DNA of 64,000 nt from an uncultured bacterium (GTDB lineage Bacteria; Bacteroidota; Bacteroidia; Bacteroidales; CAIXTV01), in contig CAIXTV010000124.1 in NCBI GenBank assembly GCA_903922465.1, forward strand, positions 1-64,000. Reading direction: 5' to 3'. Below the pieces are notes generated by a model. The model did not search any database, had not been told where the DNA came from, and worked only from the letters and a program-made list of their open reading frames with translations. Shown here one piece after another: positions 11,488-55,173 of this stretch. Within the stretch, counting starts at the first letter, position 1, and each line of letters starts with the position of its first letter. The position numbers and the translations under genes were made by a program.

Positions 11488-11780
11488 GCATTGCTAACCC
11501 AAATGTAAAAGCAAATGATAACAATACTCACACAAGCTAAAGCCCTTATTTTATTACTTTCACACTTGTTAAACAGGAGTATTTTGAAGCTTTTAAAGGA
11601 TAGTGCACTACCTGTATTTACCAATTGTTAAAGAAACAACGGATCACAAGCAAAACTTGGGGGAGTGATTTCAGGTGCAAAATGGGCGAAAAAAGGAGTG
11701 AAAATGACGGTTTTTGAAAAAAAGCAAATTTTTAAGGGTCTTAAAGTGTTGATTGAATGATTACAAAATCACACGAAGTC

Positions 11781-12116
11781 AATTTGAGTGTAGGTAGAAC
11801 AAATTTGAGCGTAAGAAGTACCAATTTGAGTGTAGGTAGAACAAATTTTAGTGTAAGAATTACCAATTTGAGTGTAGGTAGAACAAATTTTAATGTAAGA
11901 ATTACCAATTTGAGTATAGGTAGAACAAATTTTAGTGTAAGAAGTACCAATTTGAGTGTAGGTAGAACTAATTTTATTGTAAGGGGGATAAATTTGAGTG
12001 TGAGGGGAACAAATTAGATTGTAAGAAGAATCAATTGGATTGTAAGTATTTCCAATTTGACTTGCACTGTCATCAATTTGATTTGCATCGTTATCAATTT
12101 GATTGCAGGTATCTTT
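11781..12116. repeat. Tandem repeat array B: 21-bp unit (42-bp alternation), ~16 copies decaying toward the right end
   Basis: Units of 21 bp starting at 11781, 11802, 11823 ... 12096: aatttgagtgtaggtagaaca / aattttagtgtaagaattacc. Confidence 0.95.
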
Positions 12117-30109: not shown

Positions 30110-30340
30110 AACCTTATAAGGTTATAGTAAAACCTGATAAGGATAGTGTTAAACCTGATAAGGATAGTGTTAAACCTGATAAGGATAGTGTTAAACCTGA
30201 TAAGGATAGTGTTAAACCTGATAAGGATAGTGTTAAACCTGATAAGGAAAGTGTTAAACCTGATAAGGAAAGTGTTAAACCTGATAAGGTTATAGTAAAA
30301 CCTGATAAGGAAAGTGTTAAACCTGATCAGGAAAATGCTA
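30110..30340. repeat. Tandem repeat array D: 21-bp unit, 11 copies
   Basis: aacctgataaggatagtgtta at 30131, 30152 ... 30320; first unit aaccttataaggttatagtaa. Confidence 0.97.
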
Positions 30341-30519
30341 AATCTGCCTTCCTAAAGGCTTAAAGCCTTAATTATATATATTTTAGTCCTTTATTCGATA
30401 GGGGTTATAATAGCTGAAATTGCAGTAACGACATCTTAATGCGGCAAATCTATGCGCGATTTATTAAGCCTAATCAAAACAAATTAGTGTATAATGAGAA
30501 TTCGAGCTTTCGTTTTCAT

Positions 30520-39883: not shown

Positions 39884-40321
39884 TTAATTGATTGAAAATT
39901 CAAATTGGTTAATAGTAAATTGATTTGTAATATGGTTTAAATTAAATTGAGTGTTATTGGGTTTAAAATGATGAAATCTTGAATCGGATCCTAAGCTTCC
40001 CGCTTCAAAGCGACTACTTCCCGCTTCAAAGCGATTACTTCCCGCTTCAAAGCGACTAACTCCCGCTTCAAAGCGACTAACTCCCGCTTCAAAGCGACTG
40101 ACTCCCGCTTCAAAGCGACTGACTCCCGCTTCAAAGCGACTGACTCCCGCTTCGAAGCGGGTAGTCCGAAATTCAAAATGAGAATTCGTATAATTGAATA
40201 AGTAATTTGAAAATTCTAAAAATTGTTGGTTGATTTCAGGGCAATATTCTAGCCGCTGGTAGTTGCTATCAGAAACAAGGGAGCAGTTTGCTCTATTTTG
40301 CATCATAAAAAAAGATAACAT
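39884..40321 (-). CDS. Repeat ORF: non-repeat N-terminus, ~8 heptapeptides (SRFEAGV), Asn-rich C-terminus
   Basis: 145-aa ORF preceded by a well-spaced promoter (TTG-19-TAATTTTG). Confidence 0.55.
   Translation of the reverse strand: MLSFFMMQNRANCSLVSDSNYQRLEYCPEINQQFLEFSNYLFNYTNSHFEFRTTRFEAGVSRFEAGVSRFEAGVSRFEAGVSRFEAGVSRFEAGSNRFEAGSSRFEAGSLGSDSRFHHFKPNNTQFNLNHITNQFTINQFEFSIN
39996..40163. repeat. Tandem repeat array E: 21-bp unit, 8 copies
   Basis: (c/a)ttcccgcttcaaagcgact(a/g); units start 39996, 40017 ... 40143. Confidence 0.97.
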
Positions 40322-40341: not shown

Positions 40342-40371
40342 CAAAATTAACCTAAAAAATTGAATTGTCAA
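40342..40371 (-). promoter_or_regulatory. Bacteroidetes-type promoter TTGACA-N-TAATTTTG for the repeat ORF
   Basis: TTG at 40369-40371, TAATTTTG at 40342-40349, 19-nt spacing; ATG at 40321. Confidence 0.65.
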
Positions 40372-40596
40372 GCCTTTTCAGAAAATAAATTCAAATTGTT
40401 AATAACTTTTTTCTAGCCCCTATGCCCATATTTCACAAATGCCTGATTATATGATCAATAAACAGATGGTGTTTTCTTATTAAAATTGCATTTTATTTTG
40501 CTATTGTGATGATTTTCGAAGTCACTAAGCAAAAAGCGGGAAAAAAAGTGAGGAAATCACAAGTTTGCAAATCAAAAAAACAGGGGAAAAGACACA

Positions 40597-40942
40597 AATT
40601 CTACTGTGTAAATTCCAAATTCCAAGCTCCAAATTCAAAATCCCAAGAGATTGGAGCAAATTTGAATGTTTATAGCACTCTATATATTAATGTAGATTTA
40701 TGGAGATGTACATACAGCTTCTTCCCCTTCAGCCTAAAAGCCTTCAGCTTAACAGCCTTTACAACCCAAATGAATGTAAGACCCTAATTCTACTGTGTAA
40801 ATTCCAAATTCCAAGCTCCAAATTCAAAATTCCAAGAGATTGGAGCAAATTTGAATGTTTATAGCACTCTATATATTAATGTAGATTTACGGAGATGTAC
40901 ATACAGCTTCTTCCCCTTCAGCCTAAAAGCCTTCAGCCTAAC
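40597..40942. repeat. Direct duplication: two 157-bp copies (40597-40753 and 40786-40942)
   Basis: aattctactgtgtaaattccaaattccaagctcc...ccttcag(c/t)ctaac; about 3 mismatches by eye. Confidence 0.95.
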
Positions 40943-50854: not shown

Positions 50855-52366
50855 TCATTTCAGTACTTTCACAACAATTAGCGCTGTGTCTAACTCCAAT
50901 TGAATAAAATAAATTCCTGATTTTAAATTAGTTACATCATAAGAAGCATTTGATTCATATTTCCATTGAGAGATAAGTTTTCCGGAAGGTTCTATCATTC
51001 GAATTGTTTTAATATTTTCTGTTGACTTTGCTCCAAACACCAAAACTTGATTATTCACAATAGAAACCTTAATATTTGAGGGGTTATTTTCATCAATTCC
51101 TACATTTGTAGTAGTAAAAGTAACTTCGTTTCCATAAACAGTGCCCATTATGTTGGTTGCGTAGGCTCTAACGTAATAAGCCGTGCTTGCACTTAATCCT
51201 GTTAGGTTGCTAAAGAACGACCCTATACCTGTTCCATTCGATGTATAAGTATTTGAAGTAGTTGGACTTGGCAAAGTATTCCAACATACCCCTCTTGCTG
51301 TTACGGGATAGCCTCCATCGAAATACACTTCTCCTCCACAAACTGCTGAATTTATTCCAACAGAACTGGCCTGATTCGTAATTACGGTTGGAAGGGTGTC
51401 ATTTGGAGGTGTAAATTCCCATAAGTCTTTTATGGGTGAGCTTGCCGATGATTGATATCCTGTGCTAATATAACCTCTGTTGCCAATTGCCCATGAAACT
51501 GCATAGAAGCGATCGTTTTTATCGAAACAATTCCTGAGTTGCCATGCATTGCTCAATGGATTATATGACCATATATCACCTACTCCTATATATGTTGAAT
51601 CATATCCTGCACCCACGAAGCCTATATTATTGACAGCCAAACCTACGCTTGCGCAACGTTTTCCTCCTCCAAAATCGGCCTTTTGTGTCCATGAATTTGT
51701 TGCTGGATTATATTCCCATAAATCTTTATAAAATATAATTATAACACCATCGTTGCTACTAAACCCATTTGCTACATATCCTTTCCCATTTATCGCAAAA
51801 GTGGATGCACCACAACGTGCAGCACCAGGGAAAGCTGCGATAGACGTCCATGTATTTGCCACAGGATCGAAACGATAAAAGTCGTTCAGATAGCCTGTAT
51901 TGCTTTGCTGTCCTAATCCCACATAAGCGTAGTTACCTATGACAAATGCACTATGGTTTGACCTCGAAACGGGGATGTTTGCCTTTTGTGTCCAGGTGTT
52001 GGAAACGGAAGAGTATTCCCAAGTGTCGCTCAGCACGGGTGAACTTCCTCCGGCAGACACATATCCGTTGGTGCCAATAGAGAAGCCTACCGATTTAGAG
52101 CGACCTGTTGAGGGAAAGTTTGCTTTTTGTGTCCAAACATTGTTCAATTGGTCCCATTGACGGAAGTCGATTTGGTCGGAAACGCCGTTGTGGCCGCTTC
52201 CGATGTATCCATAATTACCGATTGAGAAACCAAAAGCTTCGTAGCGGTTCGAAAAGAAATCGGCTTTCTGAGCCCAAATGAGTTGAGCCGACGCATCTAT
52301 GGTGATTGCCAAAAGCCAAATAAAGATTACGTGTTTAATTGTTTTCATTGCTGTATATTTTTTCAT
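50855..52366 (-). CDS. Kelch-repeat secreted protein with C-terminal T9SS-type sorting domain
   Basis: Repeated NTWTQKANFP...GNYAYVGLG; C-term SYDVTNLKSGIYFIQLELDTALIVVKVLK. Confidence 0.88.
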   Translation of the reverse strand: MKKYTAMKTIKHVIFIWLLAITIDASAQLIWAQKADFFSNRYEAFGFSIGNYGYIGSGHNGVSDQIDFRQWDQLNNVWTQKANFPSTGRSKSVGFSIGTNGYVSAGGSSPVLSDTWEYSSVSNTWTQKANIPVSRSNHSAFVIGNYAYVGLGQQSNTGYLNDFYRFDPVANTWTSIAAFPGAARCGASTFAINGKGYVANGFSSNDGVIIIFYKDLWEYNPATNSWTQKADFGGGKRCASVGLAVNNIGFVGAGYDSTYIGVGDIWSYNPLSNAWQLRNCFDKNDRFYAVSWAIGNRGYISTGYQSSASSPIKDLWEFTPPNDTLPTVITNQASSVGINSAVCGGEVYFDGGYPVTARGVCWNTLPSPTTSNTYTSNGTGIGSFFSNLTGLSASTAYYVRAYATNIMGTVYGNEVTFTTTNVGIDENNPSNIKVSIVNNQVLVFGAKSTENIKTIRMIEPSGKLISQWKYESNASYDVTNLKSGIYFIQLELDTALIVVKVLK

Positions 52367-52381
52367 GATTAATTAATTTTC

Positions 52382-53566
52382 TTATTTCATCAACTTCACA
52401 ACTTTGTTTCCTGAGTTCATCTCAATTTGAACTAAATAAATTCCTGATGAAAATTGCGACACATCATAAACAGCACCTTCTTCATATTTCCATTGTTTAA
52501 TTTGTTTTCCGGAAGGTTCAACAAGGCGAATATTTTTAATGATATCGCTTGATTTTATTCCAAAAACATGAAGCTGATTGTTTATAATGCTCACATTGAC
52601 TTCCGAATTGTGGCTCTCAGTAATGGCAACATCGAAGGGTACGAATTCCCATAAATCGTTCAACAAGACAGAGGTTGAATAATAGCCCGTTCCGATATAA
52701 CCTTTGTTGCCTATGCTAAATGATGCGGCAGCCCAGCGCATAAATGCGTCGGGGGTGTTCATGAGTTGCCACGAATTGGTGGATGGAGTGTATTGCCAAA
52801 GGTCGCTAAAATAGGTAGTGGTCGAATTTAGCCCTGTGCCAGCATATCCCCTATTCCCAACGGTCAAACCTACTCCATACCAACGGGGGCCACCGGCGAA
52901 ATCAGCCTTTTGTGTCCAAGTATTGGCAATAGGATCATATTCCCAGAAATCGCCATAATATATAGGAGTTCCAGTATTGCTGTAACCACATCCAACATAG
53001 CCTTTCCCATTAATGGCAAAGGAGAAAGCTCCACAACGCACCCCTCCCGGAAAGCTAGCTACGCTTGTCCAAGTATTGGTTTGTGGGTCGTAGCGATAAA
53101 AATCGCTTAAATAGCTTGAAACCGAAACCTGACCTAAACCAACATAAGCATAATTACCAATTACAAAAGAAGATGCACTTGCTCGGCTTGAGCCGGGAAA
53201 TTGAGCAATGGCCGACCAGGTGTTTGCAGTGGTGTCATATTTCCAGAAGTCATTTAAGACGGAACTGTAGTAGCCTAATCCAACATAAACATAAGCATTG
53301 ATAGAAAAAGCCGTTGCTTTATCTCTTGCCGTTGCTAGACTTTGTTTTTGAGTCCAACTGTCAGTAACAACATTATATTGCCGAAAATCGGACTGTTGCG
53401 AAGTGCTATATCCTGTTCCGATATATCCACAATTTCCCAGCGAGACTCCAAAATCCTCATAGCGTCCCGAAGAAAAGTTTGCTTTTTGTGTCCATGTTAG
53501 TTGTGCTGATACACTAAAGGCCAGTGACAACAGCAAGAAAATTGAAAAGTGTTTAATTGCTTTCAT
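52382..53566 (-). CDS. Kelch-repeat secreted protein with T9SS-type sorting domain (paralog of 50855-52366)
   Basis: NTWTSVASFPGGVRCGAFSFAINGKGYVGCGY; C-term VYDVSQFSSGIYLVQIEMNSGNKVVKLMK. Confidence 0.88.
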   Translation of the reverse strand: MKAIKHFSIFLLLSLAFSVSAQLTWTQKANFSSGRYEDFGVSLGNCGYIGTGYSTSQQSDFRQYNVVTDSWTQKQSLATARDKATAFSINAYVYVGLGYYSSVLNDFWKYDTTANTWSAIAQFPGSSRASASSFVIGNYAYVGLGQVSVSSYLSDFYRYDPQTNTWTSVASFPGGVRCGAFSFAINGKGYVGCGYSNTGTPIYYGDFWEYDPIANTWTQKADFAGGPRWYGVGLTVGNRGYAGTGLNSTTTYFSDLWQYTPSTNSWQLMNTPDAFMRWAAASFSIGNKGYIGTGYYSTSVLLNDLWEFVPFDVAITESHNSEVNVSIINNQLHVFGIKSSDIIKNIRLVEPSGKQIKQWKYEEGAVYDVSQFSSGIYLVQIEMNSGNKVVKLMK

Positions 53567-53672: not shown

Positions 53673-53702
53673 TTGTAAGTATAATAATATTGCTTAACTT
53701 TG
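53673..53702 (+). promoter_or_regulatory. Bacteroidetes-type promoter TTG-19-TAACTTTG for the repeat ORF at 53720
   Basis: TTG 53673-53675, TAACTTTG 53695-53702, ATG 53720. Confidence 0.65.
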
Positions 53703-53719
53703 TAGCATCGTAATTAATT

Positions 53720-54355
53720 ATGAGTGGATGTAATTCCATATTAAAGAAATTGCCCTCTAGAATTGGCTGTTTTGATGATGATAGCCTGAAAATCTCAAGA
53801 GGTGAACCTGAAAATATTCGGGAAGGGGAATCAATTATCCATTCTTATCTTCCATCTTCTTTTAAAAAATCATTTCAGAAATCAACACAAATTGTATCTC
53901 GTCATGGAGAGACCATTTTCATTACATATTGCCCCTTTGTTTTAAAACATAAGTCCAATGCAGAACTGCGGCACTTCACCGAAGGACTGCGGTGCCTTAA
54001 TGTAGGACTGCGGTGCCTTAATGCAGAACTGCGGCGCTTCACCGAAAGACTGCGGCGCTTCACCGAAGGACTGCGGCAATTCACCGAAGGACTGCGGCAA
54101 TTCACCGAAAGACTGCGGCAATTCACCGAAGGACTGCGGCAATTCACCGAAAGACTGCGGCGCCTTAATGCAGCCACACTATTTTTGAATTCTTTCTTGA
54201 TGAGTAACAATAACACAGCATCAAAGAATAATACATTTTATAATAGCCATAATTACTATCCATACAATTCCTATCAGAGCGATCCAAAAACCAAACCACT
54301 GTTTTTGAGGAATAATGCTGAGAATAATTATTGCAATTCATTGCTTATAGATTAA
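53720..54355 (+). CDS. Repeat ORF: non-repeat N-terminus, ~10 heptapeptides (LRQFTEG/LRRFTER), Asn-rich C-terminus
   Basis: 211-aa ORF with good promoter; SNNNTASKNNTFYNSHNYYPYNSY tail. Confidence 0.6.
   Translation: MSGCNSILKKLPSRIGCFDDDSLKISRGEPENIREGESIIHSYLPSSFKKSFQKSTQIVSRHGETIFITYCPFVLKHKSNAELRHFTEGLRCLNVGLRCLNAELRRFTERLRRFTEGLRQFTEGLRQFTERLRQFTEGLRQFTERLRRLNAATLFLNSFLMSNNNTASKNNTFYNSHNYYPYNSYQSDPKTKPLFLRNNAENNYCNSLLID
53963..54172. repeat. Tandem repeat array F: 21-bp unit, 10 copies
   Basis: (g/a)gactgcggcaattcaccgaa with variant units ggactgcggtgccttaatgta. Confidence 0.97.
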
Positions 54356-54424
54356 GCCTGTTGTTTGTAAAAATGAATTAAAACCCGAGTGAACAGATAA
54401 TAATTAACCAAAACCTTTAATATT

Positions 54425-55087
54425 ATGGCACAACATAAAGAACCACATATTAAAAAAGCAAGCACAAGGAGCAAAGTTTCAGATAATGAAGCTATGTTAT
54501 TATCAGCAGGGGGCAAACTTGCTGATGATACGAATCCTTCTATTGTAGCCCTGTCAGCAGGCTTAATAGCCGCCGGTGAAGCGATAGGCACATCCATAGT
54601 GAATCAGAAAACTAAACACGATGAAGCCTTAGTCTCTACCGACCAAGTTAAACAGGACAACAAGGATGGATGCGATGCTTATAATGCTGCGGCTAAAAAG
54701 GTAGAAGAGGTCTATCCTGGAAACACTTCCAAGTGGGCAGATTTAGGCTTCTCTTCAACTCTAGCCGTAGTCCCCGATCAGACGCCTCCTGACAAAGTGG
54801 AGAATTGCAAAATGTTTCAAAGTGAATACGCAAAACAATGCGAAGTTCGCTATGATCCTACTGCTAGGGCTTTAAGCTACATAATTAAGATTACTAAAGA
54901 TGCTCCTTTGGATGCTTCGAAGTATATTATAATAGAAGAACCAACAACTTCTTTTACATCTGCTTCAGTAAGAATTGTTATTCCTGATGCCTATCTAAAT
55001 GTTCCCATTTGGATAAAAGTTACCGCGAGTAACGGTGCAGGTAAAGGGCCGTCATCTGAACCATTCGGCGGAAGAATCATACAGTAG
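54425..55087 (+). CDS. Hypothetical protein, possible Fn3-like C-terminal domain
   Basis: 220-aa ORF 70 bp downstream of the repeat ORF, terminator follows; C-term VPIWIKVTASNGAGKGPSSEPFGGRIIQ. Confidence 0.78.
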   Translation: MAQHKEPHIKKASTRSKVSDNEAMLLSAGGKLADDTNPSIVALSAGLIAAGEAIGTSIVNQKTKHDEALVSTDQVKQDNKDGCDAYNAAAKKVEEVYPGNTSKWADLGFSSTLAVVPDQTPPDKVENCKMFQSEYAKQCEVRYDPTARALSYIIKITKDAPLDASKYIIIEEPTTSFTSASVRIVIPDAYLNVPIWIKVTASNGAGKGPSSEPFGGRIIQ

Positions 55088-55136
55088 GGCTCGATTCTTT
55101 TGCTTTATTTCGACGTTTTTCTGCTGAATAATTTTT

Positions 55137-55173
55137 GAAAGTGCAACGTTTGCCCGGTTGCACTTTCTGTTTT
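55137..55173 (+). terminator. Intrinsic terminator
   Basis: Perfect 11-bp stem GAAAGTGCAAC ... GTTGCACTTTC then tgtttta. Confidence 0.85.

Follow-up and report, generated by a model that had tools for sequence, protein, structure and literature searches.

Type III toxin-antitoxin systems (ToxIN, TenpIN, CptIN) combine a few longer tandem repeat units, which form RNA pseudoknots, with a ribonuclease-type toxin. In Porphyromonas gingivalis, the BrickBuilt minisatellite/MITE is built from a 23-nt unit with predicted stem-loops and occurs in many genomic copies; all its copies use one repeat sequence, its leader and tail are conserved, and a MITE origin has been proposed for it (PMC4596501). The locus analysed here likewise contains a tandem array of a short unit, lying between a promoter and a protein gene within a 64-kb stretch of DNA (the window), which is contig C124 of the assembly searched, a 5.02-Mb draft of 312 contigs.

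An earlier note on the window had described two modules, E and F, of the same architecture with different repeats, and had listed for module F a promoter, an ORF with about ten heptapeptide repeats, a gene for a 220-aa protein 70 bp further on, and a terminator. All of these parts were confirmed in the sequence (Table 1), with an ORF of 211 aa, a 21-bp repeat unit and a gap of 69 bp before the partner gene, as was the shared architecture, the parts of module E lying on the minus strand throughout. In module F, the start codon (ATG 53720) is located 17 nt past the end of TAACTTTG (53702), and in a lag scan of the array lag 21 stands well over unrelated lags. Translated, the array reads LR(Q/R/C/H)(F/L)(T/N)(E/A/V)(G/R/E) and is followed by an Asn-rich tail. 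The terminator stem is formed by AAAGTGCAAC and GTTGCACTTT (55138-55166), with CTGTTTT directly after it; it is missing from the automatic scan because the scan takes loops of 8 nt or less. Two neighbouring, similar Kelch-like secreted proteins are encoded at 50855-53566, ahead of module F and in the opposite orientation, and a 189-bp tandem duplication with 96% match is found upstream of module E (40589-40942). Two more 21-bp arrays in the window, 11780-12107 and 30110-30346, have ordinary genes around them and no recognised partner.

Table 1. Positions of the parts of modules E and F and of the array at the contig end, in window coordinates
Feature	Position	Strand	Properties and basis
Promoter of module F, Bacteroidota-type	53673..53702	+	TTG-N19-TAACTTTG; sequence and pattern scan
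Leader ORF F, 211 aa	53720..54355	+	contains the heptapeptide-encoding array; ORF reading
21-bp tandem array of module F	53965..54161	+	9.4 copies, 86% matches (TRF)
Partner F, 220 aa	54425..55087	+	predicted N-terminal helices and C-terminal FN3; no signal peptide by eye
Intrinsic terminator of module F	55138..55173	+	perfect 10-bp stem, 9-nt loop, T-rich tail
Promoter of module E	40342..40371	-	TTG-N19-TAATTTTG; sequence and pattern scan
Leader ORF E, 145 aa	39884..40321	-	ORF reading
21-bp array of module E	39998..40159	-	7.8 copies; palindromic unit CGCTTTGAAGCG
Partner E, 246 aa	39066..39806	-	family without Pfam or NCBIfam model
Array at the end of contig C124	1..284	-	same repeat as L222:1-365 at the start of contig C244 (by eye)

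Partner genes and arrays in this and other genomes

A search of the genome for further units of promoter, repeat ORF and partner, which the earlier note had suggested, returned many more. The genome contains 22 partner genes, which fall into four families (E, F, third and fourth) unrelated to one another. Nearly all of these genes adjoin an array of ~21-bp period, which lies 5' of the partner in the E, F and third families and 3' throughout the fourth, in four of four members. E itself and its six paralogues make up the E-type genes; a clear array with lags of 21, 42 or 63 is present upstream of five of them (E, L004, L006, L007, L009), and the upstream array is degenerate in the other two (L005, L008). 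Searching the genome with an F profile identified eight F-type genes: F itself and L214 have 21-bp arrays upstream, L215 and L219 have 42/21-bp arrays, L216 and L218 have 20-bp arrays, L217 has its 21-bp array not upstream but at a distance of 365 bp downstream, and L002 sits at a contig end. The ninth match to the profile, L220, was not counted as F-type, as the protein is secreted and its FN3 domain is unrelated. Upstream arrays in the third family (L069/L221, L222, L223) are strong in two cases and weak in one (L223); members of the fourth family (L052/L224, L225, L226, L227), of ~255 aa, have a strong 21-bp array 50-150 bp past the stop codon in four of four cases and upstream in none of four. 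Because the third and fourth families were first noticed through adjacent arrays, only their further members constitute independent tests, and these carried the array in two of two cases for the third family (one weak) and three of three for the fourth. The third-family partner on contig C244 (L222) has an upstream array with the same repeat as the array at positions 1-284 of the window; given this common repeat, positions 1-284 are probably the other half of the L222 array, and the assembly probably breaks at arrays (the C124 and C244 ends).

To quantify the linkage, we used a genome sample in which a lag segment had to reach a score of 10. Of the partners, 8 of 10 had an array of 21-, 42- or 63-bp period within 700 bp upstream; of the remaining genes with 150 aa or more, 18 of 468 did. 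Fisher's test gives p=1e-9, a value that is somewhat optimistic because three of the ten partners, L067, L069 and L052, had first been noticed through their arrays, L052 being scored as a miss. The bulk of this p-value comes from the E family, whose members were identified solely by protein similarity. The existence of the module and its recurrence are close to certain.

A first contig scan with E as the query found no relatives; a later E profile matched 14 of 394 genomes of the order, often with several copies per genome. Among ~24 assessable E-type loci elsewhere, the best lag of all those tested (12-70) was 21, 42 or 63 in 19. The array ends 59-254 bp ahead of the E-type partner in 13 loci of other genomes; in six loci from two families, among them loci of the one-contig genome G588, it is 1.05-1.45 kb away, beyond a divergent gene that ends in a LuxR-like helix-turn-helix (L012, L169, L170, L172, L173, L184), and in two families of the order the array starts ~12-90 bp past the stop codon of this gene. 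F-type genes with upstream arrays were found in G776, G698, G185 and Breznakibacter, as well as in G313 and G250, which belong to further classes of the phylum, with no upstream array at L140 and L143. Breznakibacter xylanolyticus DSM 6779 (G029), a relative listed in the same order as the window and placing it in the Bacteroidota, has a partner with a degenerate array; as a culture-collection strain, it opens the module to tests. The same layout surrounds E- and F-type relatives from other families of Bacteroidota, and the earlier suggestion that the repeated layout reflects a recurring system rather than chance is supported by the additional units in this genome and in other families of the phylum. 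In many Bacteroidota genomes, the layout is one of about ten repeats close to 21 bases, with a sequence specific to each site, beside a fibronectin-like or helical protein. A literature search returned no published description of such modules, which is weak evidence as the search was narrow and relied on strict phrase matching.

Partner proteins, leader ORFs and array sequence

The partner proteins are 200-260 aa long, have a helical N-terminus and no evident signal peptide (E and F, by eye) and, in the F family, an FN3 C-terminus. In the AlphaFold2 model of partner F, residues 121-220 form seven strands with block mean pLDDT values of 70-90, and the N-terminal helices are of low confidence. 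In Foldseek, FN3 domains were the top PDB matches (a neogenin FN3 domain, E 2.7e-7, for the C-terminal half), and three F relatives match Pfam fn3 (PF00041, 3.6e-8), so that, by its predicted fold and the Pfam matches of its relatives, partner F carries a C-terminal FN3 domain. An FN3-like tail had been proposed for both partners; it is confirmed for F only, while among eight members of the E family none matches fn3 and the single-sequence model of E is uninformative (mean pLDDT 31). The absence of clear homology between the two partners was borne out: BLASTP returned nothing, hhalign gave a probability of 6.5% over 43 C-terminal columns, and homology over the whole protein was rejected. Scans of family libraries covered the E and F families; Pfam, NCBIfam and PADLOC contained no credible match to either protein itself, fn3 being found only in F relatives, and partner E had no match in Pfam, NCBIfam, PHROGs, PADLOC or, by sequence, the PDB. 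Partner F matched nothing in phage records and partner E nothing in plasmid records. The E-type proteins are a family without any annotation.

A sense-strand ORF of 107-217 aa spans the array and reaches well beyond it in ~17 modules from several families, antisense equivalents being far fewer. In E, F, L006, L167, L168 and G776, a consensus promoter precedes the start of this leader ORF by 17-52 nt, and in many E-type modules a long sense-strand leader has this distance from a promoter and ends at most 150 nt from the partner. Codon scores of the non-array leader codons are -0.20 to 0.00 bits, compared with +0.10 +/- 0.075 for genes and -0.02 to 0.17 for partners, and are no better than in other frames. 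Differences between the copies of array F comprise 0 synonymous and 17 non-synonymous changes, with no synonymous excess, and one position of the heptad keeps an aromatic or hydrophobic residue even where the copies are degenerate. Outside the array, leader ORFs show no homology except between E and L004, which share the repeat itself. At L139, L171, L067/L214 and Breznakibacter, the array occupies its usual place with no spanning sense ORF, and the 20-bp period of L216 and L218 cannot encode heptapeptides. The repeat ORF, which the earlier note had taken as a defining part of the module, fails as a general rule, since there are modules with no spanning ORF, with a 20-bp period or with a downstream array. 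A repeat protein as the general product is weakened by the absent ORFs, the 20-bp arrays and codon usage; the leader is kept open, its amino-acid sequence probably not being the selected property. Based on the weak coding signal, the missing ORFs and the 20-bp arrays, we read the array as a nucleic-acid element and not as a repeat protein, DNA being its probable form.

Across 855 kb of this genome there are 59 tandem arrays of 70 bp or more, and the period is 21 or 42 bp in 38 of them (~44 per Mb), a class with a median length of 227 bp. Most are intergenic, between ordinary or housekeeping genes, and roughly 30 of the 38 have no recognised partner alongside, indicating that an array can exist without one. 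The densest genome seen was G588, a single contig (L193-L197), with 11 arrays of 21, 41 or 42 bp per 100 kb (~110 per Mb); the count per 100 kb was four in G545, two in G713, one in G313 and none in G185, which has a partner with its array and no other array in 100 kb. Four genomes with no partner hits (G006, G008, G022, G030; ~187 kb in total) contained no arrays, and G012, also with no partner hit, contained one. That array density tracks partner presence across genomes is suggested by these counts, not established.

The array sequence is free, and its period and position are conserved. The partners Y1 and Y2 (62% identical) and F16 and F18 (67% identical) have arrays with no detectable similarity, F16 and F18 both carrying the rare 20-bp period; array similarity persists only in E/L004 and weakly in L006/L007, and co-divergence of array and partner sequence was dropped as a candidate. 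Between the orthologues L169 and L170, array identity is 95-98% and indels are absent, compared with an identity of 79-93% in the gene-proximal spacer. Copy number was compared in two orthologous pairs of two species (L169/L170 and L180/L181), and no array indel was found; no clear mobile-cassette boundaries were seen in orthologue pairs. Inverted-repeat units were significant at p<=0.05 in column permutations in 16 of 31 module arrays and 10 of 32 unassigned arrays, with covariation between copies, and in 1 of 21 arrays of a further set. The palindromic unit, strong in the first 63 arrays, failed in the next 21, and this lack of repetition leaves a tendency rather than a universal rule. Mismatches on the sense strand show no G-T excess (G-T 60 vs A-C 79), which disfavours sense-strand RNA hairpins, and an Rfam search of the module returned nothing credible.

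Possible functions of the array

Two turns of B-DNA amount to 21.0 bp, and the match of the ~21-bp period to this length points to a DNA-level, spacing-dependent role. The best explanation, which we favour tentatively from the sequence comparisons, is that the array acts at the level of nucleic acid, most likely as DNA, and that spacing rather than sequence matters. The units, identical and often palindromic, would then all lie on the same face of the helix, and this scaffold could be used for cooperative assembly by the linked protein or by a regulator of its gene. In modules transcribed through the array, a stop-free leader would let ribosomes, entering near the promoter, continue as far as the partner start, preventing premature termination and possibly allowing translational coupling, and the heptapeptides would be a by-product. 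The long promoter-proximal sense leader ORFs count against this explanation, as a purely DNA-level role needs none; so do the palindrome excess that failed to recur in the further set, the many arrays with no recognised partner and genome G185, with its single partner-linked array in 100 kb. The same ORFs are an argument for a two-protein system, in which a heptapeptide-repeat protein does the work, the downstream protein serves it as chaperone, anchor or binding partner, and diversifying selection varies the arrays. Leaders of this length, often just past a promoter and just short of the partner, the recurring aromatic or hydrophobic heptad position and the mostly non-synonymous copy differences would fit such a system; we nevertheless consider it unlikely, given the modules with no spanning ORF, the 20-bp periods, the downstream arrays of the fourth family, codon usage that is not gene-like and leaders that are non-homologous outside the array except in E/L004.

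The arrays could also be functionless by-products of a lineage-wide mutational process, such as slippage or hairpin-templated copying yielding palindromic minisatellites of ~21 bp, that are tolerated beside certain genes. Their high and mostly intergenic density, here and in G588, and their unrestricted sequence are in line with this origin, and quasi-palindrome correction alone could yield both the inverted repeats and the covariation. It accounts poorly for the strong family-specific linkage, with four partner families, a fixed side and phylum-wide occurrence, and for an array that is more conserved than the adjacent spacer, with no indels between two species (L169/L170), and we hold it to be as doubtful as the two-protein system. 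An array expressed as repeat RNA and bound by the partner, in the manner of type III toxin-antitoxin systems, would explain the order of promoter, array and protein gene in E, F and many other modules and the steady array length of about 200-230 bp; it is improbable in view of the missing sense-strand G-U preference and Rfam match, the FN3 rather than ribonuclease fold of F and the downstream array of the fourth family. Variable repeats located in frame between promoter and gene might act as a phase-variation switch for the partner gene, which appears most improbable, because copy number is unchanged between the orthologues of two species and an in-frame change of 21 bp cannot switch the reading frame.

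Returning to the spacing-based explanation, we propose, with still more reserve, that these loci represent an undescribed class of cis-linked nucleic acid and protein, in which the spacing of the repeats, two helical turns, would be conserved instead of their sequence and would serve as a ruler or scaffold for several unrelated families of small helical or FN3 proteins across Bacteroidota. The dispersed module, of which the locus analysed here is one copy, consists of a gene for a protein of 200-260 aa and a cis-linked array of ~10 units of ~21 bp. With ~20 copies in one genome, a phylum-wide distribution, a fixed geometry and a free sequence, such a module is missed by ordinary homology searches. 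If the spacing is functional, the arrays offer a clean, testable case of sequence-independent recognition of a repeat period; if their origin is mutational, they reveal a strongly length-specific repeat-generating process in bacteria.

Comparison with described systems

Like BrickBuilt, the arrays occur in Bacteroidota as intergenic tandem repeats of a short unit, with many copies per genome. They differ in that each array has its own sequence, that the unit measures ~21 bp, and that some of the arrays are linked to defined protein families. In the 200-bp flanks of 39 arrays there is almost nothing in common except contig-end duplicates and a few related pairs, with no common leader or tail and no terminal inverted repeats; the essentially unshared flanks argue against a MITE, and a BrickBuilt-type element with shared flanks was rejected. 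With FN3-domain proteins (PF00041), the F partner shares the predicted fold of its C-terminal half, to which it adds a helical N-terminal half and no evident signal peptide. The ToxN/AbiQ ribonuclease fold was not recovered, F being predicted as FN3 and neither E nor F having a credible match in Pfam, NCBIfam or PADLOC. Compared with type III toxin-antitoxin systems, the module has ~10 units of 21 bp, an FN3 protein in the case of F, and an array that is sometimes downstream: it lies upstream under its own promoter in E, F and others, and on the opposite side in the fourth family. What modules such as E and F have in common with those systems is the succession of a promoter, a tandem repeat array and a gene for a protein of ~200 codons.
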